Below, in pieces: positions 4,577 through 22,079 of a stretch of 22,079 nt of DNA (positions are counted from its first letter, which is position 1; each line of letters begins with the position of its first letter). This stretch comes from a virus. Location: the IMG/VR virus record IMGVR_UViG_3300021375_000185, positions 1 through 22,079 of that record. The stretch is one strand, 5' to 3'. The position numbers were made by a program, and so were the translations under genes. The notes below the pieces were generated by a model. It ran no database searches. It was given only the letters and a program-made list of their open reading frames with translations, and was not told the origin of the DNA.

Positions 4577-5488
4577 TTAAACTCCTATTGCAAACCAAAG
4601 CAGGCCGTCAGCTGCCGAGTCCCACGTTATATCGAAGTGGTCTAAGCTGGTCGCGTAGTCCGTATTAACCGTAATGTTCTGATAGTTAGCGCCGTTTCGC
4701 ACCATAGAGAACTGGATTGAATACACAGCGCTGGTAAATGATGTTGGATAATTTATTTGCATTGCCGCCCCAGTGTCTGCTTTGTATCCCCATTGCATTA
4801 AGATACCACCGCCTAACTCTATGTAACCGTTTGCGGCTGCGCTTACAGCAGGGAAAGCTGCTTGTTTAACTCGTAGGGGCGTCATGCCTTTAGTGTTGTT
4901 TGTTCCTGCCTCTGCTTCAGATTGTGAGGCAATAACCGTAAAGACACCATCAGCACCATCAGCACCATCAGCGCCATCAGCACCATTAGTACCATTAGTA
5001 CCTGCTGGTCCAGTGGCACCTGTGAGGCCGGTAGGCCCTGTAGGCCCACGAGGTATCGTGAAGTTCAGGATAGCGTTTGCAGCAGTACCAGCGTTAACAA
5101 CAGAAGCGTTACCACCAGCTGCGCTTGTTGTCGTGGTTCCAACAGCAATAGATCCTTCCTCTGCGATGTCCCACACTTCCTGTGTCAGATAGAACGCTTG
5201 CAGGCTGTCGTTGTCTAAGATCTCTTCACTGAGAACCGCACCGCTCTGATAGTCCACAAGACGTGCTGTTTGAGACGTAGACCTAACTAGAAGAACAATG
5301 GCACTACTAGCTGGGGCTGTAGAGAACCTGATCTTCTGAGGGTCTGTGGTGAACGTGTAGTCGTCTGGGTTTGTCTTAGTGATACCATCGACCTTAACGA
5401 CCACATGAGACGCTTCGATGTAAGGGAACGTGATGACAAAGTCCGTCGTAGAACCGTCGCCTGTGTAGCTATCTTTTGCGTATGGCAT
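4577..5488 (-). CDS. Tail fibre 1: T7-type anchor, collagen-like shaft, gp53-like knob
   Basis: 303 residues. Residues 1-105 are the T7 gp17-type anchor (MPYAKDSYTGDGSTTDFVIT, then RLVDYQSGAVLSEE and [12 protein letters not shown]). Residues 148-180 are eleven Gly-X-Y triplets ending in four Gly-Ala-Asp. A hinge (EAEAGTNNTKGMTPLRVKQA) of the kind common in fibres comes next. Residues 219-303 (GYIELGGGILMQWGYK to the end) match the gp53-like/pyocin-knob C-terminal domain that often contacts the receptor. The gene starts 5 bases after the gp16-like gene, with GAGGAG upstream, in the position of T7 gene 17, but it is about half the length of T7 gp17 (553). Together with fibre 2 it gives the phage two fibres able to dock on the tail. 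Confidence 0.85.
   Translation of the reverse strand: MPYAKDSYTGDGSTTDFVITFPYIEASHVVVKVDGITKTNPDDYTFTTDPQKIRFSTAPASSAIVLLVRSTSQTARLVDYQSGAVLSEEILDNDSLQAFYLTQEVWDIAEEGSIAVGTTTTSAAGGNASVVNAGTAANAILNFTIPRGPTGPTGLTGATGPAGTNGTNGADGADGADGADGVFTVIASQSEAEAGTNNTKGMTPLRVKQAAFPAVSAAANGYIELGGGILMQWGYKADTGAAMQINYPTSFTSAVYSIQFSMVRNGANYQNITVNTDYATSLDHFDITWDSAADGLLWFAIGV
4949..5047 (-). repeat. Collagen-like Gly-X-Y repeat tract of fibre 1
   Basis: Eleven in-frame Gly-X-Y triplets, from Gly-Pro-Thr through Gly-Pro-Ala to four Gly-Ala-Asp, with 9-base DNA periodicity. It shares sequence units with the tract in fibre 2 about 1.3 kb away. Confidence 0.85.
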
Positions 5489-5493
5489 TAGTT

Positions 5494-8400
5494 CTACTCC
5501 TCTCCTATTTGTTTCATAACGTCAAACATTTGTTTATAAGGAAGCGCTTTCTGAAGGTTTTTAACAGCCTTGTTTGTGTCCCCTTCGAGAGCTCCTCGTA
5601 CTCCTGTGGCCAGCCTGTCTGCTACACCTAACCCTGGGCCACCTAATAGGCCCGATATAGGAGCGTTTCCATAACGCCCAGGTGTGCTTGGGTATCCAGC
5701 CATACTGGTTACAGTTGCCCACACAGCTGCTGTTGGTTGGCTTAAGTAGTTTGTAAAACCTGAACGGTCAAAGATGTCATAGGCCCATTCGGTTTCAGTA
5801 CGTTCTTTGACCTCACCGTCTCTAATGAGATCTTTGGCAACAAGAACCATGCTTCCAAGGGCAGACACATAGCCCATGTACAGAAGAATCTCTGCGTCTT
5901 TGTAGTTCATTCCGCGCTGTATGGCAGGCAATATGGTCTTAGGGACCGAAACGAACCCAAAGGTCTGGAACTGGAAGATGGTCTTGAACACAGGGTTACT
6001 CATGAACAAAGGCTTCTCGCCAAGGCCCGGAGTCGTAATCGCCTGGTTAGCATTGCGCATCATAGCGGCTTTAAGGTTCTTTACGGCCTCATCGCCTTCT
6101 GGTCCCGATTGGTGCCAACGATGCCAGTCTAGTTCGAACACACCCTTGTTGTTTACGGGTGGGTACTTGTCTATCATCTTCTTGATGAGAGCCATGTTCT
6201 CACGGTCTAAGTTAAAACTTGCGTACTTGGCAACCAGCTTTTGTGCCTTCGTGTCTCCGGCAGTAGCCTTTGCCAATACAGCCTCGTAGTCACCTATGTC
6301 TTTGACCAGATGGTGTTGCATGGCGTTTAGCGCTGTGATCTTGCCGCGTGTGTTCCACCACTGCATACCAGACCAGATGGACACACTGTTAGTAAGACTG
6401 TTAGCCGCTCGTGACACTAGATTAGTAGCGGCGTAGGTGCGGCTTCCTTGTTGTCCTAAAGCACCCGGCAGACGCTCTTGTTCAATGTTAGCCAAAGCAA
6501 GCGCTCTGTTGTTCTGCATAGTGTTTTCTAAGTGGGCCACAATGGTTTTTAGCTCAGACTTAGGCAAGCCTCTGAACGTGTCCGCAACATTACGCATCAA
6601 TAAAGCGCTGTCAGCGTGGAACCCGTTGACCAAAGCTTTCTGGGCAAGGTCAGTTAAAGACCCAACCATAAACCCAGGACCATAGACAGAGTATGCCCAC
6701 TTCCTAAGTTTATCAGCAGACCAAGCCAACGTGTTTACCAAGTTGTTGTCTGTGGGCTTTGGACCCGCACGGCCCATGTGCTCGTCCAACATACCAGTCA
6801 TAGATTCTCTAACGTCATCAGCGTGTGTCTTCAATTGACGCCTGTATCGATCACTGATGTTAGGGTCTCTCATCTTTTCGTTCACAGCCTCAACAGCGTC
6901 GTCTACGATCTTAATGGTATCTGTGGTTCCAAAAGTCTGCTTAAGGCCTATCAGTGACGACAGCTCTCTGTTGGCCACATCCATTGTTCCAAACAAGTCG
7001 TCGCTCATAAAGCCTCTATCGAACAACTCGTCCAACTCGTCGTTGGTCCATGTGATCTGACGTTTCTTCAAGCGGTTGCTCATGGAGGACTCTACGGCGT
7101 CGATAGACCCTGGGAGACGATTGCCTGACGCAATGTCGGACACAAGGCGCTTAACGTACTCGTGGACAGGGGCGTCTTTACCTTTGGCCCGTAAGATCTT
7201 TTTGGCTTTCTTCGCAGCGGTCTTGTCTTTACCAGCTTGGCGCGTTGTCTCTGCACGACGGGCGGTCAAGGCTTTGCGTTTGGCCTTAAGGTTTTCTAAG
7301 TTAGCTTGGTGTATGTCTATACGATCCGTAAGCTCTTCGACCCTGTCCGTTAACCTGCTTAGTTCGACATCGATCTCTTTAGCTTTTTGATCAAGAGATG
7401 CCTTTCGTTGTCTAAGTTTCGCAAGCACTTCGCTTCTAGGTTTCTTTAACGCTTGTTCAGCCTGCGCCATCTTAAGAGGCTGTGTTTCAAGTTCGTCTGC
7501 GGCCTGTCTTGTAAGTTTCTGGGCATTAAACATTTCGTCAAATGCTTCAGAAACGTCGTCAAAGTAGCCTTCCCACTTTTTAATCTTTTCTTCGTAAGCT
7601 TGTGCTTTCTTTAGTTTATCTCTAAAGGCTTTAGCTTGTGTGTTAGTGTCGAGAAACTGATTAAATATTACATCTTGTTCGGCTTCTAAGATGTCTATTT
7701 CAGTATCTAGCTCTTGTTCTTTTCGCTTGGCTTCCGCCCTTTCTAGTTTTTTGCCCTCTATGTCTTTAAGGCGTAGCTCTTTTATATCAACAGCTTCCTT
7801 GATAGACCCGTTTTTAATCTCGGTGTCTGTTTTCCTGGCGTCACGAGCAGCTAGAACAGCTTCCCTTTTTGAGTCATTAGCGACCTGAAGGGCAATATCT
7901 AGTTCTATCTCAGCTTCCAGAAGAGCGCGCTCGTACACGTCTCCAGACCAAGACTCACGAATATCAAGCTTTGCTGCTAGTCCTGTCTTGGTGGTGTACT
8001 CAATGCCGTTAATGGTGATGTCTTGTTTGCCTAGAGCTGCAAACTCGTCAGGCGTGATAGCTCCACCAAAGCCGTCAATATCGTTTAGGAACTCTTCCGT
8101 CGGCTCATCCAGAAACTTACGAAGCAATATCTCCTCAAAGCCCGCACGATCAGCAGCCACAGCGTCCCTAAGATAGATGTGAGCCATGACATAGTCTTTG
8201 CCTAATAGCTGTTCTTCAGGAACCTCAAGCGTATCGCGTAGGAACTGCTCCATCTTTTTGTTCTGGGCGTGTACATCATCAGCTATGTCCTTTGCCGCAG
8301 CCAAGATGGTCTTAGTGTTATCGACACCAAACCGTGCCTTAAGCTTATCTACATTCAGCTTTGAGATAGGGTTAGCATCGTCGTATCGCATTGCTGTCAT

Positions 8401-9843
8401 GCGAACTAACGCAGAGATCTCTTCTTCTTCTAAGTGCCCCTCGTCTTTGATGTATATCTTCTGGCGCTGTTCGCCTGTGACGACTTTTCGCGCGTCTTCC
8501 GCAAACCTTAGAGCGTCGGTCTTTGCTTCCTGAAGCGTACGTCCAGCTTGGGTCGAAGGACCGCCTATCTTGGCAATCAGGTCACCAGCTTTTTGCTTAA
8601 CGCCTATTGCAAACTCTGTGTGACTAAGCTCAAGGGCTGCTTTTATGTCAGTCGCTGTTCTTCCTGGGGAACCACCAGTACCCATAGACTCAAGGATAAC
8701 GCCCCCTGTGTCTGATAGTTTTTGCATTGTGGCTCGTACTCCGCTAACGGGAGACATAAGCATACGAAGCTTTGGAATAGCTTTAGCTAACGCTCGACCA
8801 GCACGTCCTATGTTTAGAACTTTAGGTGCCTCTCCAGCTTTAACCTGAGCAGCACCAGCTGTGCTTGGGCCTGCGTTTGGATCAACAGCTTCATCAGGAC
8901 CAACGCGACCAGTAGATCTTTGAGTTCCTGTAGGAAGACCATTTTCAAACTGGCTAATAGGAGCGTTACGGTCAATGGCAATAGTGTTGCCGTTGTCATC
9001 TACAAAGGAAAACGCTGTGTTCTGAGGATCGTCTCCCAGCTTGTAGTACTCTGTCTTAAAAGTACCATCAGGCTGTCTGACCTGCCTTATCGATACAGCG
9101 TCTCCATCAGCATCTCCAGGACGCGCTACGACAACATCAGGAGGTGCGCTATCGCTGAACGGATTATTAGGGTTCTCTGGGTGTAGAACGTGTTGTTTAC
9201 TGAGGACACCAGACATAGCGCCCAAAGCGCCACCAAAGAGACCACCAGCTGCTATGCCGTATACGGACTCCATCATGGTCCGTTGGTCCTGAAGGCTCTG
9301 TAGTACCGCCTCGTGACCAGCAGTTACACCAGCACCAGCAGCCCCTACTCGTACAGCCCTACCAGCTGCAGTAACTTTAGACCCAAGGCCAAAGACGGGA
9401 ACTAAGGTCGTAAGATCTAATAAGGACAGGCCCATGCCAACAACAGTACCAAGCGTGTTGCCTTGTTCTATTGTCTTTCTAAGTTCAGCTTCCCTGCGGT
9501 ATCGCGCAGCTCGGTCTTTGAACTGTTGTTCAGACCACACGTCATTGAAGTCGCTGCTACGGATAAACGGAAGAATATCGAAATACTCTTCTTCACGCTG
9601 TGTCGCATAGACCAAAGGGTTAAAACTTTTGTCTATTACATAGTTGCCTGAGTGTCTGTCTTTTTTAAGACCATACTCAAACAGACTGCCGACGATGGTT
9701 TCTTGTGTGAAGAAGGCACCAGCTGTGTCTACAGTGCCGGGGGTCTGCTCTAGAGTAGCGTTGAATGTATCAAACTGTTCACTTAGGAATCGAGAAGTCT
9801 GCTGTTGCTCTGGAGTCAGTGTTGGTACAAACTTCTCAACCAT
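5494..9843 (-). CDS. Internal virion protein D (T7 gp16-like ejection protein) without its transglycosylase domain
   Basis: A 1449-residue protein, the largest here, directly upstream of the fibres as gene 16 is in T7 (1318 residues). Two Gly-rich hydrophobic stretches lie near the N-terminus (about 129-155, LGTVVGMGLSLLDLTTLVPV, and 193-214, VYGIAAGGLFGGALGAM), suitable for membrane insertion during DNA ejection. Residues about 636-885 are a long, highly charged coiled coil (for example ELDTEIDILEAEQDVIF). The C-terminal third is mixed and ends YKQMFDVMKQIGEE. I see no transglycosylase motif at the N-terminus, unlike T7 gp16; that activity is in the 749-residue gene upstream. Role by position and size: part of the trans-envelope channel ejected before the genome. 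Confidence 0.75.
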   Translation of the reverse strand: MVEKFVPTLTPEQQQTSRFLSEQFDTFNATLEQTPGTVDTAGAFFTQETIVGSLFEYGLKKDRHSGNYVIDKSFNPLVYATQREEEYFDILPFIRSSDFNDVWSEQQFKDRAARYRREAELRKTIEQGNTLGTVVGMGLSLLDLTTLVPVFGLGSKVTAAGRAVRVGAAGAGVTAGHEAVLQSLQDQRTMMESVYGIAAGGLFGGALGAMSGVLSKQHVLHPENPNNPFSDSAPPDVVVARPGDADGDAVSIRQVRQPDGTFKTEYYKLGDDPQNTAFSFVDDNGNTIAIDRNAPISQFENGLPTGTQRSTGRVGPDEAVDPNAGPSTAGAAQVKAGEAPKVLNIGRAGRALAKAIPKLRMLMSPVSGVRATMQKLSDTGGVILESMGTGGSPGRTATDIKAALELSHTEFAIGVKQKAGDLIAKIGGPSTQAGRTLQEAKTDALRFAEDARKVVTGEQRQKIYIKDEGHLEEEEISALVRMTAMRYDDANPISKLNVDKLKARFGVDNTKTILAAAKDIADDVHAQNKKMEQFLRDTLEVPEEQLLGKDYVMAHIYLRDAVAADRAGFEEILLRKFLDEPTEEFLNDIDGFGGAITPDEFAALGKQDITINGIEYTTKTGLAAKLDIRESWSGDVYERALLEAEIELDIALQVANDSKREAVLAARDARKTDTEIKNGSIKEAVDIKELRLKDIEGKKLERAEAKRKEQELDTEIDILEAEQDVIFNQFLDTNTQAKAFRDKLKKAQAYEEKIKKWEGYFDDVSEAFDEMFNAQKLTRQAADELETQPLKMAQAEQALKKPRSEVLAKLRQRKASLDQKAKEIDVELSRLTDRVEELTDRIDIHQANLENLKAKRKALTARRAETTRQAGKDKTAAKKAKKILRAKGKDAPVHEYVKRLVSDIASGNRLPGSIDAVESSMSNRLKKRQITWTNDELDELFDRGFMSDDLFGTMDVANRELSSLIGLKQTFGTTDTIKIVDDAVEAVNEKMRDPNISDRYRRQLKTHADDVRESMTGMLDEHMGRAGPKPTDNNLVNTLAWSADKLRKWAYSVYGPGFMVGSLTDLAQKALVNGFHADSALLMRNVADTFRGLPKSELKTIVAHLENTMQNNRALALANIEQERLPGALGQQGSRTYAATNLVSRAANSLTNSVSIWSGMQWWNTRGKITALNAMQHHLVKDIGDYEAVLAKATAGDTKAQKLVAKYASFNLDRENMALIKKMIDKYPPVNNKGVFELDWHRWHQSGPEGDEAVKNLKAAMMRNANQAITTPGLGEKPLFMSNPVFKTIFQFQTFGFVSVPKTILPAIQRGMNYKDAEILLYMGYVSALGSMVLVAKDLIRDGEVKERTETEWAYDIFDRSGFTNYLSQPTAAVWATVTSMAGYPSTPGRYGNAPISGLLGGPGLGVADRLATGVRGALEGDTNKAVKNLQKALPYKQMFDVMKQIGEE

Positions 9844-9845
9844 TT

Positions 9846-10001
9846 CTACTTGTACTTCCTTTTAGCTGTTTTGGCAGACTTCTTAAAGTCCTTGGCTGTA
9901 GGAGCGCCTTTAGCTCCCGCCTTACGCATAGTCTCTTTAGATCCAGCGGCAATGCGCTTACGCTTTGCGTGGATGTTAGCATACAGTCCAGGTTTTTTCA
10001 T
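9846..10001 (-). CDS. 51-residue, highly basic protein of unknown function
   Basis: A short gene read by hand: ATG at 10001-9999, stop TAG at 9848-9846, two bases before the gp16-like ATG. The protein begins MKKPGLYANIHAKRKRIAAG and ends KTAKRKYK. It has 18 Lys/Arg and only 2 acidic residues in 51, and no hydrophobic segment. The KKPGLYANIHAKRKRI start is one I recall as recurrent in small proteins of aquatic phages, without assigned function. It is placed between the membrane/lytic genes and the gp16-like ejection gene and next to another basic small protein. Its charge suggests binding to DNA, RNA or the acidic scaffold, or co-packaging; this is inference. Confidence 0.7.
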   Translation of the reverse strand: MKKPGLYANIHAKRKRIAAGSKETMRKAGAKGAPTAKDFKKSAKTAKRKYK

Positions 10002-10005
10002 GAGA

Positions 10006-10254
10006 TTACCATTTCACTTTGTTGGCCCAGTAGGCGGCGGACATCTTGCCTTTTTTGATGTTCTTAGCGTGGCGGGCTTTGAACGACTTGTTCCTTTTGG
10101 AACCAGCGGGAGATCCTTTGACACCCTGCTGACCAAAACGAATGACTTTCTCTTTGCCACCGGAACATGCTTTGACAACATGAGACTTAGTTTTATGAGA
10201 TGGGGTACGCTTAGGCTTGTTGCAAGCCATTTTAGCTTTAGAGACTCTAGGCAT
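10006..10254 (-). CDS. 82-residue basic protein with conserved AAYWANKVKW tail, unknown function
   Basis: I place the start at ATG 10254, giving MPRVSKAKMACNKPKRTP and onward: GAGG sits a few bases upstream and the ATG follows the previous stop by one base. A longer frame from 10308 would overlap the membrane gene by 53 bases with no ribosome site. The body is KTKSHVVKACSGGKEKVIRF, then FGQQGVKGS, a Lys/Arg-rich stretch, SFKARHAKNIKKGKMSAAYW and VKW at the end. Two cysteines (CNK, ACSGG) are present but no clear zinc motif. The C-terminal pattern recurs in small phage proteins of unknown role. Together with the 51-residue gene it forms a basic pair inside the ejection operon. Confidence 0.7.
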   Translation of the reverse strand: MPRVSKAKMACNKPKRTPSHKTKSHVVKACSGGKEKVIRFGQQGVKGSPAGSKRNKSFKARHAKNIKKGKMSAAYWANKVKW

Positions 10255-10255
10255 A

Positions 10256-10696
10256 CTACCTCGCGTTCTTAACCATTGAGGCTCCAAAGTACATACCAAT
10301 GATGGCACTAAGGAGGTGGGTGTCTAGTGGCGTTAGGATCAATCCGCTCATTGCGCGCCATACTGTTTCCTCTTGCCCTGAGAAGAACAAAAAGCCAGGG
10401 TGCCACTCTGTGTACCCTACGGTCACAGGGATCTCAGGCCAAAAGACCGGAACGACCTTGGGCCATACGATCACAGCGCCTACAGCTGACAGGGCGATGA
10501 TACGACGTGTGACTTGGAACCCTTTGTTCTCATAGCGGCGCGCTACGTCTGTAGCTTTCGTTTGTGCCGCAAGTCCATCGATGGAGCGCTGGAAGGCCTC
10601 TTGTTTAGCTTTAGCACTTTGGCCCCATAGGGTCATGACGCCAGACATCAGGCTTGAGCCCAGCATGGTTATTAGTTCTAAAGGTAAACCACCCAT
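10256..10696 (-). CDS. Phage membrane protein with about three hydrophobic segments, holin-like or virion membrane component
   Basis: 146 residues. Hydrophobic stretches lie near residues 4-24 (LPLELITMLGSSLMSGVMTL), 65-86 (RIIALSAVGAVIVWPKVVPV) and 115-140 (MSGLILTPLDTHLLSAIIGM). A polar helical region (QSAKAKQEAFQRSIDGLAAQ) joins the first two. I recall similar proteins from many marine phages, with no proven function. It starts 3 bases after the hydrolase stop, with GGAG 8 bases upstream. Sitting next to a cell-wall hydrolase it could be a holin, but inside the ejection gene block a virion or channel role is equally possible. Confidence 0.65.
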   Translation of the reverse strand: MGGLPLELITMLGSSLMSGVMTLWGQSAKAKQEAFQRSIDGLAAQTKATDVARRYENKGFQVTRRIIALSAVGAVIVWPKVVPVFWPEIPVTVGYTEWHPGFLFFSGQEETVWRAMSGLILTPLDTHLLSAIIGMYFGASMVKNAR

Positions 10697-10699
10697 GCT

Positions 10700-12949
10700 C
10701 TACTCCATAGACTCAGGCCTACGGGGCGGCAGGATTTTGTCATAACCTTCAGGGAACGTAACATTACGCTCTGCACCCGCAGCTTTTGTAAGTCTGTTTA
10801 GAAGGTTGATTTCTTCCCTAGTCATGTCTGGAATGTTTTTGAGTTTCCGCAAATCTCTTACGTCAGCGGCAGGGAACCAGCTTAGTTTTATTTGATCTCC
10901 TTGGTTTCCTCCTGCAACTAGAATGTGAGGAACTTCCTTATTATTCCCAAAGATTTTTTTACTTCTATCACTGCTTTTCAGCTGCTGTCTGCCAGTGTAG
11001 AGTGCTGTGTGCCCTCGTCCTTCTTTACCTTCTTCATTCATCCCCCAAGAAAACACAACAAGAGCCCCAACAGGTGTGTTATCTGGGATTTTCTCAGGTA
11101 TTTTTTCATTGCTGAAATAACTGTCTGACAAAGAGGGGGTTTCTTTGGTAAGAGGAAGCGCTGTCCCTACCGTAGAATAGGCTAACGCCTTGTTTCTGTC
11201 AGACTGAATCCTAATGCCAGCACGTCTAATGTTTCGTTTACGCCTACTAGGCTCGTCACTGCTGTCCAAATTAGGTTGATTATCCGTTAAATTATTGGTG
11301 TCATACAGAATTGCAGACAGTGCTGCGGTACACCAAGCAAAGTCAGTTAAGTCTACGTTTTTCCAATCTGTAGAAGGAATAGCACTTTTAAACACTGCTT
11401 TAAGAGTATCCCGTCCTACCTTATTATTTTCACTGACACCAAACCACTTAGTTATAATCGCACCCAAGGGGTTTTTCCTATTTGCTATAGCCCTAGAAGT
11501 TATTGCAACAGTTTCCTTCATAACCCCATTAGCTGCTGTATCGTTAGCTATTTCTTCTATATTAAGTTTTTTATAACTTTCTTCTGTACTTATCTTTTTA
11601 GCCTGTGCTTCTGGAAGACCTCCAAGAAACTCAGGCCTACGCGGTGGTAAGGGCATAGAGGGTTTACCAGAGACAAGGTCTGAGACTTCCTCTTTTATAA
11701 GAACTCCCGCTTCCGATAGTTGATCAAGCACACGCTTACCTGTTTCTCCATCAACACCAATAGCTTGTAAGGCTTGCTTACCGGCCTCAAACACAGAACC
11801 TAGCATACTGCCTTGAGTAACCTCAGCGCCTACCTCAGGACGTAGGAACGGACGGCCTTCTGAGTCGAGGTCTGGACCAGAGGATTCACCTTCAACGCTT
11901 AGTCCTGAAAACTTTTTCATGTACTTTGAAAGGTCTGTCTTTAACTCGTCCTTAGGATTGTATGTCTCATCAGTTAAATACTTTTGCAGTCCTGTGAAAC
12001 CACCTAGATGAGCAACCGCCAACATGCCTGATAGTGTTATTTCAGCACCAGACTTAGGATCAATTTGTCCTATGAACCTATCTAGCCCAGTTCTTTTGAT
12101 ATTATCAGCGTGGTTATTATAGTGCCAAGAAGCTACTTCGTCTTGCTTTGTAGCGTCTGCTTTAAGCTCATTCTGTGTGTAGTTATTCCCTGTTGCTTTG
12201 TTAAAGTCTTTTAGTCTAAGAGAACCAACTTGATCTAACCCAACAAACCTATCACCTTTTTTATCTTTATATTCTGCACTGGTTCTACCACTAGATTCAC
12301 CGCTTCTTAACGCCGATATAAAGTCACTGTTTAAAGCAACTGAACCAGTTGATTCTGCCTGAACAGTATTTTTATCAAAGCCCGCATAGAACGCATTAAC
12401 CTCGTCTAGACCCTCTAGTGCCTTAAGATCTTTAGACACAAGCTTCTTAGCAAGCGCTTCTCTGTCACCATGAACCACACTAAGCAGATGGCTTGTGTAC
12501 GCAGCGCGTTGATCGACACTGATTGTCGGAAGGGCAAAGTCGTCAGCTTGTAGAAGACCATCAAACATCCGGTTTATCTCCAGCATTTCGATCATCTGGT
12601 TACGCCTGTATTCATCAGGATCATTAGGATCTTTGACAGGCACAGGACCAAGATCAGGGTTATAGTTGACCCTGTCGTTAACGTACTGCTCTACAGCATC
12701 CATAGTCGGTTGGTCTTGAGAGCCGTTTCTCAGAAGGATGTCTTCAGCAGGGCGTGTGTTCTCAGGTGTCGTTACGCCTGACGTTGGCGAAATGAGCCCA
12801 AGTTGCTTAAGTACATAGTTCTGTTTCTCTCTGTAGTCTTGTGCATAATCTTGTGGAGAGAGTGATGCGTCTTGCTGGGCAAGTGGAGCATATAGATCCA
12901 TAAACTTATCGAACAGGCCTTTAGGTTGTTCTTTAGTTTCCTCGGTCAT
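10700..12949 (-). CDS. Virion-associated cell-wall hydrolase: lytic transglycosylase plus CHAP/TIGR02594-like domain
   Basis: 749 residues with two predicted catalytic parts. The first, about 203-330, has a transglycosylase look: candidate catalytic E218 in ALRSGESSG, then DRFVGLDQVG and the late motif LAVAHLGGFTGLQKYL. The second, about 480-705, matches the TIGR02594/CHAP-type peptidase or amidase: C540 in FAWCTAALSAIL, GALVVFSWG, H647 in GRGHTALYTG and GGNQGDQIKLSWFP near 681. The motif PPRRPE occurs at 435-440 and 741-746, framing the second domain. The ATG overlaps the upstream gp15-like stop (ATGA) with little Shine-Dalgarno, so translation is coupled. In T7 the transglycosylase is fused to gp16; here it is separate. 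Likely task: opening peptidoglycan for DNA ejection. A role as the lysis endolysin cannot be excluded, since no other endolysin is in the window. Confidence 0.75.
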   Translation of the reverse strand: MTEETKEQPKGLFDKFMDLYAPLAQQDASLSPQDYAQDYREKQNYVLKQLGLISPTSGVTTPENTRPAEDILLRNGSQDQPTMDAVEQYVNDRVNYNPDLGPVPVKDPNDPDEYRRNQMIEMLEINRMFDGLLQADDFALPTISVDQRAAYTSHLLSVVHGDREALAKKLVSKDLKALEGLDEVNAFYAGFDKNTVQAESTGSVALNSDFISALRSGESSGRTSAEYKDKKGDRFVGLDQVGSLRLKDFNKATGNNYTQNELKADATKQDEVASWHYNNHADNIKRTGLDRFIGQIDPKSGAEITLSGMLAVAHLGGFTGLQKYLTDETYNPKDELKTDLSKYMKKFSGLSVEGESSGPDLDSEGRPFLRPEVGAEVTQGSMLGSVFEAGKQALQAIGVDGETGKRVLDQLSEAGVLIKEEVSDLVSGKPSMPLPPRRPEFLGGLPEAQAKKISTEESYKKLNIEEIANDTAANGVMKETVAITSRAIANRKNPLGAIITKWFGVSENNKVGRDTLKAVFKSAIPSTDWKNVDLTDFAWCTAALSAILYDTNNLTDNQPNLDSSDEPSRRKRNIRRAGIRIQSDRNKALAYSTVGTALPLTKETPSLSDSYFSNEKIPEKIPDNTPVGALVVFSWGMNEEGKEGRGHTALYTGRQQLKSSDRSKKIFGNNKEVPHILVAGGNQGDQIKLSWFPAADVRDLRKLKNIPDMTREEINLLNRLTKAAGAERNVTFPEGYDKILPPRRPESME
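10712..10729 (-). repeat. PPRRPE-coding repeat, copy 2 (C-terminal end of the hydrolase)
   Basis: Encodes residues 741-746, nearly the last of the hydrolase. With flanking bases it shares actcaggcctacg (plus strand) with copy 1 at 11630-11647. The two copies bracket the CHAP-like domain. Confidence 0.7.
11630..11647 (-). repeat. PPRRPE-coding repeat, copy 1 (inter-domain linker of the hydrolase)
   Basis: Encodes residues 435-440 in SMPLPPRRPEFLGG, between the transglycosylase-like half and the CHAP-like half. The plus-strand DNA actcaggcctacg is identical to that at copy 2. Confidence 0.7.
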
Positions 12950-15528
12950 GGTGTTATCCCTTCCCCAGCTTGTTCTCCTCTAGGAGGCACTAATGGAATT
13001 TGGGCTCCAGAAATAGACTTTAGAGTTGCTCTACGAAGATCTTGGCCACCAAGTGGCGCTTCGCCCCTGTCTTCCATAGGTTCAATGTCCTTAAAGAACG
13101 GCAGGATAACCAACTGATATGACCCACGACCTGTAGGCAACAGTTGGTACTCAGAACCAAAGGCTTCTTTAACGAGTCTTTGGTCTTTTGAATAATCACC
13201 AGTAAATGTGTAATCAGGAGAAACCGCTGTGTTTCCTGCATACTGAGGAAAGAAATATGAAACCAAGGCGTTGGCTATTCTTTTGTCTCCAAAAGGTTTT
13301 TCGAGCACCTGACCTGCGTTAAACATAATAGGCGCACCAAAGTTCTTACTGGACCTAATGACACCAAAGCCCGTTCGTGCTCCTGTTCCTATAGTTACGC
13401 TTAATGCGTCTCCATCGACACCAGGAATCGGCATGTTCTTAACGCTTTCGATCATGTTCCCATATGTGTCTTGGGGATCACTGCCGTCAGATGGTTGAGC
13501 ATACGTCCCAATGTGAGCGTTCTGAAACTTAGGATCAAAGCCCCTGTTGTACTCAAGAGGCATCTGGCGGCTTCCAGTCGGCCCCATCCCTGCATAAACC
13601 CTTTGAGAGTCTGGTAGCCCAAGCATCACGGTCTCTTCGCCAACCAGCACTCTTGGCTGAAAGTATTCAACAACTGCCTCTTTAACAGCGTCTAATGATA
13701 CAGATTCGCCGCCTGCTTCTAGTCGTGCCTTAAGTATAGGCGCAACTTTACTTATTTCGTCCTTAAGGTTTTGTGAAAGAGGCTTGCCTGAAAATAAAAA
13801 GGTAGTTTGGTTGTCTAAATCGTTTCCTACACTTGTGTACCATTCTGCAAGTTTTTCACCTGCTTTTTGTGGTTTTTCATCTGGGTATAAGACTTTCCCT
13901 AAGTCACCTTTAGCCTCAGCACTTGCTTTTAAAGACGCCATGTATTCTTCATCGCCTTGGAAACTAAGCGCTGCTTCTATACCAACTACCCTTGCTTGCT
14001 CGTATAAGATCCTGTTTTCTGAGTCTTTACCAAGAGCTGCTTCACCAATCGACCCGTCTCTATCTAGGGTCTTCGCAAACGCAACGACGCCTGCCATTGC
14101 GTTTCTGTCTCCAGAACTAAACTGCTCTCTGATTATATCTAGGAAAGCCTGTGGGGGTTTTTGCTCTAAGCCATTAAAATTACGAAGGGCGTTTGTGAAT
14201 TTGCTAAAGTACCTACTGTCTGACAGATCACCTTTGCCTAAGAAGACACGAAGAGCTTTATCTTTTTCTTTAGGCTCCATGCCCCTGTAGTCTTCAAGAG
14301 CATCGCCCCGGCCTCCAACAGAACCAATAGCTACTTGCTCAACAGTCTGATACCCTGAAATCAAAGTTGCGTATTCTGCTTTAGCTTTATTCAACGAGGC
14401 CTTAGCTTTATTTACGTTTGTTAGAGTCACACCTGTTGTGCCCTCAAGCGTACCTACCATACTACTAGCAGCGAAAAACTTTGCGCTGATATCGTTAATA
14501 TCGTTAATATCTTTAATGTCGTTGATGTTTGTCGTTAAGGAATTAACATAAGTACTAACAGATGCCAACTTTTGCTGACCTGTAATTGTCTTCATGCTTT
14601 CGATGGCTTTGAACGCTTTTGAACGCAGCTCTGCGGCTTGACGGGGGAATCGTTTTGCAAAAGACGTTCTGGGAGTTATTTGCGTTGTGCCGTCAGGTAA
14701 CACAGCGCTTGGTGTTCCTTGTTTAGCCATCATGCTTGTATCTGGAATAAGGTTTTGATCTAGCATAGCAACATACTTAAGAGCGCCTGTTACGCTTTGT
14801 GTTGCTTGAAACCCGTAAATACCAAAGACGTGTGAGATAGCTTCACCTTCTGTGTACCCACGATAGACAGACCTAACTTTGTCTACTTGGTTCATAAGTT
14901 CAAAGAAATTAGGAGCGCCAGTGTTTTTTGCATCGTTTGTTATGCTTGTTTCCACAGCTTTCCGTGCTGTGTCTTTGATCTTCTGAGCAGCAGCTACAGT
15001 ACTTTCGTGCCGTAGTTTTTCTGTATTGGCAGTCCATGATTTTTGGAACGCGGCGTCAAAATTAAGGTTCCCTGTTCCGTTCCCAAAGTTGTCTTTATTA
15101 TATGTATTACGAGCCTCGGGTATTTCATGAGGCTGTAGGTCACTTGCTACAACAAAAGAAGCAAACTGTTTCTCGGCGTCACTAGCTCTTAAGGAACCAA
15201 GCGCTGACGAATAGGCGTCTGCGTAAGTGCCTTTGTACTCTTTTGTAATCTCAGAAGAAACAGAAGTTACTCCTGATTCATAAGCCTGTCGGGCATCCAT
15301 AACCGCTTGCTTTTTAGCTTTATCCTGGGACTTAGCTAGTTCGACTTGTGTTTGTTCCGCAAAGTAATTAGTGAAACCGTCAGCTAAAGAAGCAAGACCA
15401 GCGGCAAAAGACCCAGCGCCTGGATCAGCGCGAACTTCAGAAACCACGTTTTGACGCGGAGCTGGTATTCCTACGCCTGTGCCAGCTTTAAGATCTGGAA
15501 AATAGCCTGGGGTTCTGCCTTGTCTCAT
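12946..15528 (-). CDS. Internal virion protein C (T7 gp15-like)
   Basis: 860 residues (T7 gp15 is 747), located between the gp14-like gene and the hydrolase as expected. The N-terminus is MRQGRTPGYFPDLKAGTGVG, followed by an Ala-rich helical region (SFAAGLASLADGFTNYFAEQ and TQVELAKSQDKAKKQAVMDA). Helices dominate to about residue 560, then more beta-rich sequence follows and the end reads GAQIPLVPPRGEQAGEGITP. No enzyme motif is visible. In T7, gp15 forms the periplasmic tube with gp16. AAGGAA lies upstream of the ATG; the stop overlaps the next gene's start. A short DIKDINDINDI repeat lies near 14490-14530. The assignment relies on size, order and composition rather than a signature. Confidence 0.7.
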   Translation of the reverse strand: MRQGRTPGYFPDLKAGTGVGIPAPRQNVVSEVRADPGAGSFAAGLASLADGFTNYFAEQTQVELAKSQDKAKKQAVMDARQAYESGVTSVSSEITKEYKGTYADAYSSALGSLRASDAEKQFASFVVASDLQPHEIPEARNTYNKDNFGNGTGNLNFDAAFQKSWTANTEKLRHESTVAAAQKIKDTARKAVETSITNDAKNTGAPNFFELMNQVDKVRSVYRGYTEGEAISHVFGIYGFQATQSVTGALKYVAMLDQNLIPDTSMMAKQGTPSAVLPDGTTQITPRTSFAKRFPRQAAELRSKAFKAIESMKTITGQQKLASVSTYVNSLTTNINDIKDINDINDISAKFFAASSMVGTLEGTTGVTLTNVNKAKASLNKAKAEYATLISGYQTVEQVAIGSVGGRGDALEDYRGMEPKEKDKALRVFLGKGDLSDSRYFSKFTNALRNFNGLEQKPPQAFLDIIREQFSSGDRNAMAGVVAFAKTLDRDGSIGEAALGKDSENRILYEQARVVGIEAALSFQGDEEYMASLKASAEAKGDLGKVLYPDEKPQKAGEKLAEWYTSVGNDLDNQTTFLFSGKPLSQNLKDEISKVAPILKARLEAGGESVSLDAVKEAVVEYFQPRVLVGEETVMLGLPDSQRVYAGMGPTGSRQMPLEYNRGFDPKFQNAHIGTYAQPSDGSDPQDTYGNMIESVKNMPIPGVDGDALSVTIGTGARTGFGVIRSSKNFGAPIMFNAGQVLEKPFGDKRIANALVSYFFPQYAGNTAVSPDYTFTGDYSKDQRLVKEAFGSEYQLLPTGRGSYQLVILPFFKDIEPMEDRGEAPLGGQDLRRATLKSISGAQIPLVPPRGEQAGEGITP

Positions 15529-15540
15529 ATGCTTTTTTCC

Positions 15541-16086
15541 TTATGATCCACCAGCTGATCCAATACCTGTTCCACGATCTGGTGTGTTAGGGGCATTATA
15601 AATACTGGCTCCAGCACCAACAGCTGTTTTAAGAGTTGATCCAACAGCTGATGAGATTTGCTGGCCTGCTCTTCCTGCGGCCTGGACGCCTCTTGTCCCT
15701 TGCCTTGAAATGGCATCTGCTTGCTGTGATGCCCTAAAGGCAGCGTCTCTTGCCGTCTGTTCTTCAATACGACCAAGGCCTACGTTTAGACCGTATTCAG
15801 CAGCGTACAAAAGGTTTCCTAAAGACGATTCAGTAAGCATACTCTCTGAGGCCTGCGCGGCCCCAAGTTCCTCCTGAGACCTACGCATAATGTCAGACTG
15901 TTGCTCAAGGCCTTCCTGTTGCTCTTGTGCTATACCACGAAGGGCTTCTTGTTCTTCAGCTTTACGTTGTGCCTCTGCTGCTTCGAACTCTGCATCAGCC
16001 TGCGCGTTTGCTGCCGATGCTGTCATGACGGTGGACGCTACAGAAGAAGCCACAGTCATAAGTGCCATTGAAATGGGATCACACAT
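15541..16086 (-). CDS. Internal virion protein B (T7 gp14-like)
   Basis: 181 residues, close to T7 gp14 (196). The N-terminus (MCDPISMALMTVASSVASTV) starts with the MCDP seen in many gp14-like proteins and contains a small hydrophobic, Ala/Ser-rich segment. A long Gln/Glu/Ala helix follows (QADAEFEAAEAQRKAEEQEA and on to about residue 80). The C-terminal third is Gly/Ser-rich (QAAGRAGQQISSAVGSTLKT). In T7, gp14 lies at the portal and then forms the outer-membrane part of the ejection channel. AGGAG lies 9 bases upstream. I see no gene for a gp13 equivalent between tail tubular B and this gene. Confidence 0.75.
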   Translation of the reverse strand: MCDPISMALMTVASSVASTVMTASAANAQADAEFEAAEAQRKAEEQEALRGIAQEQQEGLEQQSDIMRRSQEELGAAQASESMLTESSLGNLLYAAEYGLNVGLGRIEEQTARDAAFRASQQADAISRQGTRGVQAAGRAGQQISSAVGSTLKTAVGAGASIYNAPNTPDRGTGIGSAGGS

Positions 16087-16091
16087 AGCTT

Positions 16092-18746
16092 CTACTCCTG
16101 CCTCGTCAGTTCATTGAAGAACCCGGTGTAATCAATAGACGTAATGATCATGGGTTTCTCTGAATCATTTACGATTTTAACTTTTACCGTGTTGGCGTTA
16201 GTCCTAACGGGAACCTTGAAAGACCCAAGGGACTCAATGCCTATACCGCCTACCAGTGCTGTACCAATCAGCGTACCGTTAAAGGTAAACGTCTGCTGTG
16301 AACGTGACTCAGGTGTCACTTCGATCTTAAAGAACCCTGTGTCCTGATAGTTAAACTGAAGGCGCTTGAGTTGGAACCGTCCTGTCTGAACAGTCATCTT
16401 ACCAGCAGCGTCTGCTCGAACAAACAGCTTTGATAGTTGGACTTCTTGGGTGAAGGGAACGCCCAGGATAGCGTCGGCTGCTGAATAATCACCTACAGCA
16501 GTTATGGTAGTTGTTGTTGGGTACAACACAGCAAGCCGCTCACCCACCTGTCCTGTTGGGAAGTCGCTGGATAAGACAACAGCTGCTTTGTTGTTGTGCA
16601 GATAGGGCGTCGTCCAGGTCGTTAGTCCCGTTGAGACACTGTAAGATCCTTGGGAATTGAACGTCTGGTCTAGACAGATCTGGTACGGGTGTTTGTCGTC
16701 TGACAGCTCGTACCTTAGTTCTATCTTTTCAAAGAACGTCTCAGTGCCCCTGGTGACGTACATGTACATGTCACCTAGAAGAACACCAACCCAATGGATA
16801 TACGTTCCTGTACCAAAGTCCCATTTGGACCAGGCGCTTTGTGCTTTGGCCTCTTGTTCCGTATAGGTCTTGTAGATGTACAGAGAGTTTCGCTCTGAGT
16901 CAGATATGCAGAACATCATCTCATTGGCACTATCAGCTGCGATGTGAACGATAGGTGCCGGTATGTACCCAAGAGCGTGGATCGTAATGTCTTCAGCTGT
17001 GGTCGATAGGGACGCATCGTTGTACTGATACTCGAATACCAAGGCGTCTCGACCACTCTTGGCCGCAAAGTACATACGGTTCCCAAGGGCCACAGGATCA
17101 CACTTGGGCTCTGTGATGTACGCCGTAGCTGTATCGATCACTGCGTTCTTTGACGTAAACGCCTGTTGGTCTGAAGACACCTCAAACTGTGATCTGTCGG
17201 AACTTAAGAACAATGATCGCCTGAAGGGGAACGCATGGATCAATTCGTTTATATCGTCACTAGAGGCCTGTAGACCAAACGGATCGCTGTCTAGAACTTG
17301 GGTGCTGAACTCTGGCCAAAAGTTAAAGAACAACCGTGAGCGAGAGAAGAACACCGTTTCGCCTGAGATGATCGCAAGACGGTTGCGGTGCGTTGTGATC
17401 TGTTTGATCTTACGGCCCACAAAGTCTGGGTTAGGAACGGTCTGTGTATCACCGGCACCACGAGCATCATACGTCCCATGACCAAACGTAAACGTTCCGT
17501 CAGCCTTCCGCGTCAGGAAGTGAGGCATCGTCGTCAGGTCAAAGGCGTTGTTCTGATACGGATTGGCCGCCTCGATCCAAGCGTCTTGTGACTGGCTGAA
17601 CTTAACCCAATAGCCGTCTGTTGTCTCTGTGGCCGTTAGGAACACATAGTAACCTTCAGGAGCCCAGTTAGGCAGCAGAGAGCGTGATGTTCTTACGTTT
17701 GCGTAGACTTGCGTTGTGATTGTCTCGCCACCGCTTGAGTACGCTGAGAACCCTGTGCCATCGACAGAGGTCGATAGGTCATAGTCGCTATACAAAGCGA
17801 ACGTTGTTGCTGTAAGTTTACTGACGAAATACTGATTACCGTTTAGTTCAGTCATGCCCGCAACATTGTCGATGCTGACTTTTTGATATGACGTGAAAGA
17901 GTGGCTGTCTACTGTCGTTATGACAACAGGGTTCGCTTGTGTTGCTGCGGTGATGTTGTGCGTGTGGGAATCACTCGGAATATCTACAAGCTGCCTTAAG
18001 GCCTTTACGCCGTATGTGGCATCAGACCCGTTGTCCGAAATCGTGAACTGATGACCGTCTGTGTTTTCTACAAGAACCGTAAGATCCCGGTCGTTTGGTT
18101 TTTGTGTAACTGTGAAGTTTCGGTAGCCTGCTGTAAAGCCTGTGAAAGACGCGTGTGTGATGATGTCGTCTGCAATCGAAGACCCATCAAGTGCGCCGTT
18201 CTTAGACCACACTTCAACACCATCAGTCGCTGTGTCGTTCAGGTTGTCGATGACAAGCGCGTTAGTTCCTGTGGTCGTTGTGCGTGACGTAACAAGAGCT
18301 GTAGGATTGTCACCGCTTGTGTATGTCGTTTCAGCCATACTGACTGTAAAGTCTTTGTTAGCAACAATCGTGATGTCGCCAATCGTAGTTGCAGAAAAAC
18401 CTTCTGCTGGGTTGGTATTAGCTAGATATGCTTTGCCGTTGGGAAACTCAACAGTCTGCTCTGCACCTGCTAGGTTATAGACCTTTAGGTCACCATTTTT
18501 AACGACAATAATATATTGTTCTACTGCGTCTCTAACATAAGCGTAGCACCAAGGTTTATCAGCTGTATAAGCGAATGTGTTTTTAACGATATGTCGTGAG
18601 GACGCACGGCTCTCTAGGCCCCCGCTGATCACAGACGTGAGAACATTGGTTGCTTCTTGTACTTGCCCAGTGAGCCTCAGAGAGTCAGGCTGACGGCTTA
18701 CGCCTTGGTATAACGTCTTAAGCGATTGCTCTATAAGAGTTCCCAT
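16092..18746 (-). CDS. Tail tubular protein B (T7 gp12-like nozzle), with an FCCH-like insert
   Basis: 884 residues from ATG 18746, which gives MGTLIEQSLKTLYQGVSRQP, matching the gp12-family start (T7 begins with a similar SQSIKNLKGGISQQPD). The frame stays open to 18800, but that would overlap tail tubular A by 53 bases and add 18 residues absent from the family. The chosen ATG follows the A stop by one base. The protein is beta-rich throughout, with family segments such as KQITTHRNRLAIISGETVFF and FNFWPEF, and DPFGLQASSDDINELIHAFP. It is longer than T7 gp12 (794), partly through an extra beta domain at residues 264-342 (TAATQANPVVITT, GMTELNGNQYFV, DGTGFSAYSSGG). It forms the distal nozzle of the short tail, below tail tubular A. 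Confidence 0.9.
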   Translation of the reverse strand: MGTLIEQSLKTLYQGVSRQPDSLRLTGQVQEATNVLTSVISGGLESRASSRHIVKNTFAYTADKPWCYAYVRDAVEQYIIVVKNGDLKVYNLAGAEQTVEFPNGKAYLANTNPAEGFSATTIGDITIVANKDFTVSMAETTYTSGDNPTALVTSRTTTTGTNALVIDNLNDTATDGVEVWSKNGALDGSSIADDIITHASFTGFTAGYRNFTVTQKPNDRDLTVLVENTDGHQFTISDNGSDATYGVKALRQLVDIPSDSHTHNITAATQANPVVITTVDSHSFTSYQKVSIDNVAGMTELNGNQYFVSKLTATTFALYSDYDLSTSVDGTGFSAYSSGGETITTQVYANVRTSRSLLPNWAPEGYYVFLTATETTDGYWVKFSQSQDAWIEAANPYQNNAFDLTTMPHFLTRKADGTFTFGHGTYDARGAGDTQTVPNPDFVGRKIKQITTHRNRLAIISGETVFFSRSRLFFNFWPEFSTQVLDSDPFGLQASSDDINELIHAFPFRRSLFLSSDRSQFEVSSDQQAFTSKNAVIDTATAYITEPKCDPVALGNRMYFAAKSGRDALVFEYQYNDASLSTTAEDITIHALGYIPAPIVHIAADSANEMMFCISDSERNSLYIYKTYTEQEAKAQSAWSKWDFGTGTYIHWVGVLLGDMYMYVTRGTETFFEKIELRYELSDDKHPYQICLDQTFNSQGSYSVSTGLTTWTTPYLHNNKAAVVLSSDFPTGQVGERLAVLYPTTTTITAVGDYSAADAILGVPFTQEVQLSKLFVRADAAGKMTVQTGRFQLKRLQFNYQDTGFFKIEVTPESRSQQTFTFNGTLIGTALVGGIGIESLGSFKVPVRTNANTVKVKIVNDSEKPMIITSIDYTGFFNELTRQE

Positions 18747-21341: not shown

Positions 21342-22079
21342 TTAGACACCTTGTTGTTGTTGAGCTTCACTCATCATAGCCTGCGCTGCTCCTGTTGCAA
21401 GCTCTTGTCCACCAGCTGCCATAGCTTGGTTCTGAGCCTGCATCATTTGCTGCTGTTGTTGTTCTTCCTGAACTTCTTGCTGTGTCTTCACAGAGTCAGG
21501 CAGGCTTAGGCCATAGAACACCTTGTAAAGCAACTCGTCCCATTTGACATACGCCAGAACTTCAGGCGGCAGGCCTTGTAGGAACTGAAGCGCCGTTTGT
21601 ACACGGGTCACATCGCTCTCACGACCAAGGGCCTCAAGGCCCGTAAGGATCGTAGGTTCAATTAGACCTTTAGGCCACACAGGCAACTGTTCGTTCTGTT
21701 GCATCTGTACGATCAACCGTTCCAAACGACGCTGTTGCATCGCCCGGTTAAGCTGGCTGTACACACCGCCCAGGGTAGCCTCTAGTTCCTGTTGGTTCCT
21801 TTGGATCTCATAGGCCGTAGTCCGTTCGCTGTCACGAGTAGCAGCAGACCCAAGCATAAAGGCCCCGCCGATCTCTCGTGTCAGACGATCTAGTTCCTGA
21901 GCGCTGATCTGAAGACCATTGGTGTTCTGGAACTGAAGCATCACAACGTCTTCAGGATTACCGACGATGATCTCACCGTTGTTCGCCGTAGCAATACGAC
22001 GGCGTAGGTTCAGACCACCCGCAGCATTAGGACGAACCATCGTGACGTTACGAGAGGCCATCGCACTGCCATCGAGCAG
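21342..22079 (-). CDS. Portal protein (T7 gp8-like head-tail connector), C-terminal part
   Basis: About 246 codons, open at the right edge; an internal ATG at 22061 is not the start, since the frame continues upstream without a stop (the preceding codons read LLDGSA). T7 gp8 has 536 residues, so roughly half is present. Recognisable parts are GGAFMLGSAATRDSERTTAY (the gp8-family region before the crown), EIQRNQQELEATLGGVYSQL, and RVQTALQFLQGLPPE. The C-terminus is Gln/Ala-rich (QEEQQQQQMMQAQNQAMAAG), as is common for portal tails. It forms the dodecameric portal vertex through which DNA is packaged and ejected. Confidence 0.88.
   Translation of the reverse strand: MLDGSAMASRNVTMVRPNAAGGLNLRRRIATANNGEIIVGNPEDVVMLQFQNTNGLQISAQELDRLTREIGGAFMLGSAATRDSERTTAYEIQRNQQELEATLGGVYSQLNRAMQQRRLERLIVQMQQNEQLPVWPKGLIEPTILTGLEALGRESDVTRVQTALQFLQGLPPEVLAYVKWDELLYKVFYGLSLPDSVKTQQEVQEEQQQQQMMQAQNQAMAAGGQELATGAAQAMMSEAQQQQGV

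Follow-up and report, generated by a model that had tools for sequence, protein, structure and literature searches.

The two-domain virion hydrolase gp13 of phi29, a phage of a Gram-positive host, combines a glycan cutter with a peptide cutter. In T7, the peptidoglycan hydrolase encoded with the gp14, gp15 and gp16 ejection proteins is the N-terminal transglycosylase of gp16. Relocation of hydrolase domains from one ejection protein to another is established, as in K1E/K1-5 (gp35) and Kafavirus SWcel-C56 (cds43), where the hydrolase lies off gp16 (PMC8954989). The endolysins of cobaviruses are diverse and are encoded beside internal virion protein genes, and the stand-alone transglycosylases of the CRP-5 type have been read as endolysins (PMC6775973). 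Here we describe a locus of a marine T7-like phage in which a separate gene of the ejection cluster, P0001, joins a transglycosylase-type and a peptidase-type domain behind a conserved N-terminal tether, and in which the catalytic part is exchanged as a cassette among otherwise very similar phages.

Gene order and domain layout

The window, that is, the whole stretch analysed, is a 22,079-base virus record with its genes on the minus strand (the strand of every gene coordinate of the window given below), running from the portal gene (at 22079) to the start of TerL in the order portal, scaffold, capsid, tube, nozzle (Pfam Phage_nozzle, 1.6e-171), gp14-like, gp15-like, P0001, P0003, gp16-like, tail fibres, small genes and the TerL start. 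P0001 (10700–12949, 749 residues), whose reading frame, length and named residues all agree with the initial annotation, lies inside the gp14-gp15-gp16 cluster, between a gp15-like gene (12946–15528) and a gp16-like internal virion protein gene (5494–9843), with a gp14-like internal virion protein gene further upstream (15541–16086, Pfam T7_gp14 E 2e-4, below the cutoff). Its first 4 nt overlap the end of the gp15-like gene, and the 146-residue membrane protein P0003 (10256–10696) starts 3 nt past its stop. No near nucleotide match to window positions 5000–16500 was present among 50,697 phage records.

The open reading frame, profiles, models and homologues together describe P0001 as a two-domain peptidoglycan hydrolase, consisting of a non-catalytic N-terminal tether (residues 1–205, 12335–12949), a lytic-transglycosylase-type domain (residues 208–349, 11903–12328), a 69-bp joint (DSEGRPFLRPEVGAEVTQGSMLG, 11798–11866) and a TIGR02594/NlpC-P60-type domain (residues ~471–724, 10778–11539), with no transmembrane segment by hydropathy. 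Pfam, NCBIfam and PDB sequence scans with P0001 alone returned nothing significant, so both domain assignments are based on homologue profiles and models. The two domains were modelled separately rather than as one full-length protein, since a single alignment mixed transglycosylase and NlpC/P60 fragments. The joining of two such domains in one gene at this position, as proposed initially, is supported by the analyses below.

Among the neighbouring small genes, two small basic reading frames (9844–10258) lie between P0003 and the gp16-like gene. One of these, of about 83 residues (beginning MPRVSKAKMACNKPKRTP), is present in the window, L087 and L096, is missing from the other sisters and has homologues of about 70% nucleotide identity in cobavirus-like loci. 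A 2OG-Fe(II) oxygenase gene on the TerL side of the tail genes (464–880) is conserved in the sisters.

The transglycosylase-type domain

Residues 210–346 of P0001 are 38.8% identical to SWcel-C56 cds43, and residues 240–349 are 31.9% identical to KLEP18-1 gp20 (tblastn); both of these proteins match PHROG 26675 ('endolysin'). A search with an alignment of the three sequences found the region in at least 141 viral contigs. Across 39 homologues, E218 (12296–12298) and S219, which form an ES motif, are each at least 90% conserved and are followed by G, Q and AHLGG motifs. The AlphaFold2 model of this domain (pLDDT 88.6, pTM 0.83) was matched by Foldseek to E. coli MltE (probability 1.00, TMq 0.52–0.53) and P. 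aeruginosa Slt (probability 0.99–1.00, TMq 0.59–0.60), both of which stand among T4-lysozyme matches and have E-values of only 0.02–0.2.

Structure prediction thus bears out the transglycosylase-like domain of the initial annotation, and the model indicates a lysozyme-superfamily transglycosylase fold for residues 208–349. The Pfam SLT profile (PF01464) does not match P0001. The domain is a divergent family close to PHROG 26675, and lysozyme-type hydrolase instead of transglycosylase chemistry is possible.

The TIGR02594/NlpC-P60-type domain

Five residues of the C-terminal domain do not vary among 31 homologues: W539, C540 (11330–11332), H647 (11009–11011), N682 and Q683, the last two within a GGNQGD motif. 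C540 and H647 occur in the order expected for a TIGR02594/NlpC-P60 (C40-like) peptidase, together with the GGNQ motif. The TIGR02594 profile does not match P0001 alone, but matches the 478-residue protein of sister phage L091 at 9.8e-14, below the curated cutoff. Collinear relatives include a cobavirus-like protein (L111, over P0001 residues 356–743, E 2e-19) and L368 (over residues 432–724, 36%, E 2e-60). When the domain profile was compared with the PDB, the matches were largely of NlpC/P60 type (CwlO, Spr/MepS, dipeptidyl-peptidase VI and Tse1), with a best E-value of 0.0017 and a range of 0.0017–0.7 for CwlO, Spr/MepS and Tse1. The model of residues ~471–724 is mediocre (pLDDT 70.9), and Foldseek searches with it gave weak PDB matches, and C51/CHAP proteins with probability 1.00 in a viral library. 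Of the domain initially described as CHAP/TIGR02594-like, the invariant residues and motif stand, while the CHAP label is better read as TIGR02594/NlpC-P60-type, a related papain-like fold.

Origin of the gene and its N-terminal tether

P0001 had been described as a transglycosylase split from gp16. The gp16-like protein shows no transglycosylase, as had been noted: there is no Pfam or NCBIfam match of that kind, alignment of its family with the transglycosylase family (hhalign) is negative, and PHROG 342 ('internal virion protein with endolysin domain') matches it only at residues 701–1440. The same hhalign comparison is negative for the gp15-like family. A transglycosylase concealed in either protein was rejected on these hhalign results, which are moderate evidence, since both profiles are shallow (few, similar sequences). 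Comparison of the tether with gp16 as a possible fragment of that protein was also negative.

The tether is 36–43% identical to the window in the sister phages and 84% in L092, and its residues ~29–68 match slot proteins of wider relatives (hhalign E 3.9e-6, probability 87%, 41 columns); no tether was confirmed in bacterial genomes. The slot between the gp15-like and gp16-like genes is kept in these wider relatives, which were found through TerL and include five with a separate M15 endolysin, so that in those five the slot enzyme is not the sole lysin. The slot proteins of the relatives with M15 (567–834 residues) have a short tether, a GH24-like segment (by eye) and a C-terminal DxYDFN-type domain. 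The slot protein of G032 combines an NlpC/P60-type domain (C40 profile E 6e-34) with a tether and a GH24-like segment, so that a glycosidase plus a peptidase in the ejection slot is not unique to the window. Since the slot and the tether motif are common to the wider relatives, P0001 is regarded as a conserved fourth ejection-cluster protein of the lineage, a better account of it than derivation by a split from gp16; nor would such a split be new in itself, given the known movement of hydrolase domains between ejection proteins (PMC8954989). What has been exchanged, in part with cobavirus-like phages, is the hydrolase modules.

Cassette exchange among sister phages

The same slot is present in sister phages L085, L086, L087, L089 and L091, and also in L092 and L101. 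Identities to the window, for which some of the sister contigs are partial, are 98–99% for the portal, 93–98% for the capsid, 85–98% for the nozzle, 95–100% for P0003 (94.6–98.4% at the nucleotide level) and 54–93% for the gp16-like protein. They are 60–64% for the gp14-like protein (62% in L092) and 29–31% in most sisters for the gp15-like protein (66% in L092). The gp14-like, gp15-like and tether sequences therefore diverge together, bounded by the capsid and nozzle (85–98%) on one side and P0003 on the other. At the nucleotide level, the block 10698–15721 of the window has no extended similarity to L091 or L086, with flanks of 94–98% and 92.8–96.6%, respectively; a more sensitive search recovered short matches of 71–75% to L091 in the gp15 region.

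Within the gene, the boundary is sharp. L087 and L091 share 99.8% identity across 3,654 nt that end at gene nt 654 (residue 218), past which no similarity is found up to the stop codon, and L085 and L089 likewise break at gene nt 654–670. The catalytic parts beyond this point differ: L091 has the NlpC/P60-type domain alone, L086/L087 and L089 match PHROG 90 ('endolysin'), L085 and L092 have unassigned parts that are GH24-like by eye, and L101 carries the L087 module (96%), the joint and a further module. Three of the five replacement cassettes in the sisters match hydrolase families. The 69-bp joint (gene nt 1084–1152) is 85–96% identical, over alignments of 67–87 bp, to loci otherwise unlike the window gene. 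These comparisons indicate that the catalytic part, from about residue 218 to the stop, is a cassette exchanged by recombination at a fixed site, with residues 362–384 as a second joint. A conserved N-terminal tether with swappable catalytic cassettes in a fourth ejection-cluster gene is new here.

An alternative C-terminal domain, in place of the NlpC/P60-type one, is found in the slot proteins of L101 (9962–11911), L108, L360 and L369; it ends in a D-x-Y-(D/N)-F-N segment.

P0003, g1111 and the cobavirus-like lysin cassettes

P0003 has one clear transmembrane segment by hydropathy and relatives in at least 565 viral contigs, often directly beside lysins; the Pfam families near these relatives include Phage_lysozyme2, Phage_lysozyme, Glyco_hydro_108, SLT, Hydrolase_2 and Pesticin. 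A relationship to the 3TM holin-like protein of SWcel-C56 was rejected by hhalign, so we infer that P0003 is a candidate holin from its context. The P0003 homologue HTVC024P gp35 (L357, 8001–8432) is annotated 'putative peptidase M15', which is unsupported, P0003 having no Pfam match and a transmembrane segment. The 100-residue, one-TM coiled-coil gene g1111 (1111–1413), close to TerL, is spanin/holin-like, and its homologues lie beside P0003 in other phages, directly upstream of it in several cobavirus-like loci.

In cobavirus-like cassettes, homologues of P0003 and g1111 accompany a lysin. CRP-5 (Cobavirinae) encodes, in this order, gp39, gp38, the lytic transglycosylase gp37 and the P0003 homologue gp36. 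Cobavirus-like phages carry a P0001-type linker and NlpC/P60 unit as part of a large fusion protein, located after a CRP-5 gp39 homologue. Two such phages are G006 and G007, the latter 67% identical to CRP-5 in the capsid and 47% in the nozzle-position protein; their fused hydrolase sits at the gp38-gp37 position, and no similarity to gp38 was detected in its N-terminus.

Search for a separate endolysin

The window, L273, which matches it at 97.1% over 6.3 kb, and L289, which does so at 92.6% over 1 kb, together span the genome, being different strains that were compared piece by piece. L273 encodes integrase, RNA polymerase, ThyX, SSB, RusA, primase, DNA polymerase, exonuclease, RNR and portal to nozzle, and L289 encodes TerL, GP88, dUTPase, integrase and RNA polymerase. 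The initial annotation had called for a search for another endolysin, and no second hydrolase was seen in these pooled contents. For 45 proteins scanned with Pfam and PHROG, the 25 families listed of 49 and 131 included no lysin, and none of ten proteins, mostly small unassigned reading frames, that were then scanned singly is a lysin. The integrase lies just upstream of RNA polymerase in the sisters (L273 1–549, L289 6771–7688), so a temperate lifestyle is possible for this group; in bacterial genomes, no prophage with the tether was confirmed.

In wider relatives, an M15 gene (PF13539, E 1e-10 to 1e-15) lies directly 3′ of TerL in 9 of the 22 records searched, but it is absent from all six close-group contigs that extend 700 nt or more beyond TerL (L286–L289, L294 and L353). 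Among 70 TerL contigs, g1111 and M15 never co-occur. In the intermediate group G032/G033, g1111 is present and both M15 and P0003 are missing, which weakens a simple replacement of M15 by the P0003 cassette. No Amidase_2 endolysin was found in 14 related contigs. The missing M15 and the lack of a second hydrolase in the pooled contigs lend support to the earlier suggestion that P0001 may also perform lysis, which is unproven.

Probable role of the tethered hydrolase

Taken together, the predicted domains, the slot and the sister comparisons make it probable that P0001 is a virion-associated hydrolase of the ejection cluster, built from a tether and two catalytic modules that form an exchangeable cassette. 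We infer that it is packaged in the virion and enzymatically active, with the tether holding it to the gp15-like protein in the particle, so that it would travel with the ejection proteins. On ejection, the transglycosylase-type domain would cut glycan strands and the NlpC/P60-type domain stem peptides, and the opened wall would let the periplasmic tunnel form, with P0001 standing in for the T7 gp16 transglycosylase. Recombination in the conserved flanks (tether, joint and P0003) would swap the catalytic cassettes.

The 4-nt overlap and the co-divergence with the gp15-like gene support this entry role, although the co-divergence of gp14, gp15-like and tether sequences can be mere linkage in one recombined block, and the stand-alone transglycosylase of CRP-5, which occupies the place before a P0003 homologue, counts against it. 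That place, the adjacency to P0003 and the position of cobavirus endolysins next to internal virion protein genes (PMC6775973; CRP-5) would also suit a plain endolysin lying among the ejection genes by chance, with the tether as a mere N-terminal extension and the protein outside the particle. We consider this unlikely, since the slot is kept in relatives that have an M15 endolysin as well, P0001 overlaps and co-diverges with the gp15-like gene, and the particle would be left with no recognized hydrolase. Still far less credible is the idea that the two domains are degenerate structural remnants lacking catalysis: Pfam directly recognizes neither, and their basis is sequence and models, yet the conservation of E218 (at least 90%), the invariance of W539/C540/H647/N682/Q683 and the hydrolase families matched by three of five sister replacements all speak against it.

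A larger role is a serious contender, although we would not bet on it: P0001 may serve the particle as entry hydrolase and also act as the lysis enzyme, with P0003 as the holin that releases it. As this includes the entry role, the confidences given to these readings are not exclusive. It would agree with the absence of a second hydrolase from the pooled window, L273 and L289, with the distribution of M15 after TerL (9 of 22 wider-relative records, none of six close-group contigs) and its lack of co-occurrence with g1111 among 70 contigs, with the company that P0003 and g1111 keep with a lysin in cobavirus-like cassettes, and with the precedent of dsRNA phages, in which one lysin serves both ends (PMC6088179). 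However, the pooled genes come from different strains, and an unrecognized lysin or another lysis mechanism could be present; the tether should retain the enzyme among the ejection proteins; and P0003 is a candidate holin by its context, the hhalign comparison with the 3TM protein having failed. The further proposal that a tailed dsDNA lineage has lost its dedicated endolysin, with one tethered two-domain ejection protein with interchangeable cassettes serving entry and lysis, is accordingly offered as a tentative one, about which we are rather doubtful.

Comparison with known systems

In a limited literature search, we found no description of a two-domain enzyme in the ejectosome slot, nor of cassette exchange in near-identical phages or an apparent loss of the separate endolysin. 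Mosaicism is established for ejection proteins. In this lineage, phages that are nearly identical differ by a clean cassette swap on a constant tether, in effect a natural experiment on the limits to entry and lysis in marine bacteria, and the exact swap sites reveal natural joining points for such enzymes.

The window resembles the T7 ejectosome in that a T7-like phage encodes a peptidoglycan hydrolase alongside gp14-, gp15- and gp16-like ejection proteins; unlike the N-terminal transglycosylase of gp16, P0001 is a separate gene with a second, peptide-cutting domain and swappable cassettes. It shares with K1E/K1-5 gp35 and SWcel-C56 cds43 a hydrolase placed off gp16 (PMC8954989), and the cds43 transglycosylase is homologous to its own (39%), but each of those has a single hydrolase domain on a gp15-like or gp15-position protein. 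SWcel-C56 also encodes a separate GH19-like protein, by eye its endolysin, whose gene lies beside the 3TM holin-like gene near the end of the genome record. HydH5 (CHAP plus LYZ2) is a virion protein that, much as predicted for P0001, combines a glycan cutter with a CHAP-type cutter (PMC3150257). HydH5 and phi29 gp13 come from phages of Gram-positive hosts and lie outside any ejectosome.

The cobavirus cassettes (CRP-5 gp38-gp37-gp36; G006/G007) resemble P0001 in that the hydrolase gene immediately precedes a P0003 homologue and follows genes of internal virion proteins, and G007 has the joint, linker and NlpC/P60 unit in common with it. They differ in that CRP-5 has a stand-alone transglycosylase of 224 residues, that G006/G007 have a fusion to another large protein, and that the phage family is different. 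If P0001 is indeed the sole hydrolase, the window would represent a tailed dsDNA phage with merged entry and exit enzymes, comparable to phi6/phi13 and phiYY, whose single lysin serves for both but, unlike P0001, resides in the virion envelope of enveloped dsRNA phages (PMC6088179).
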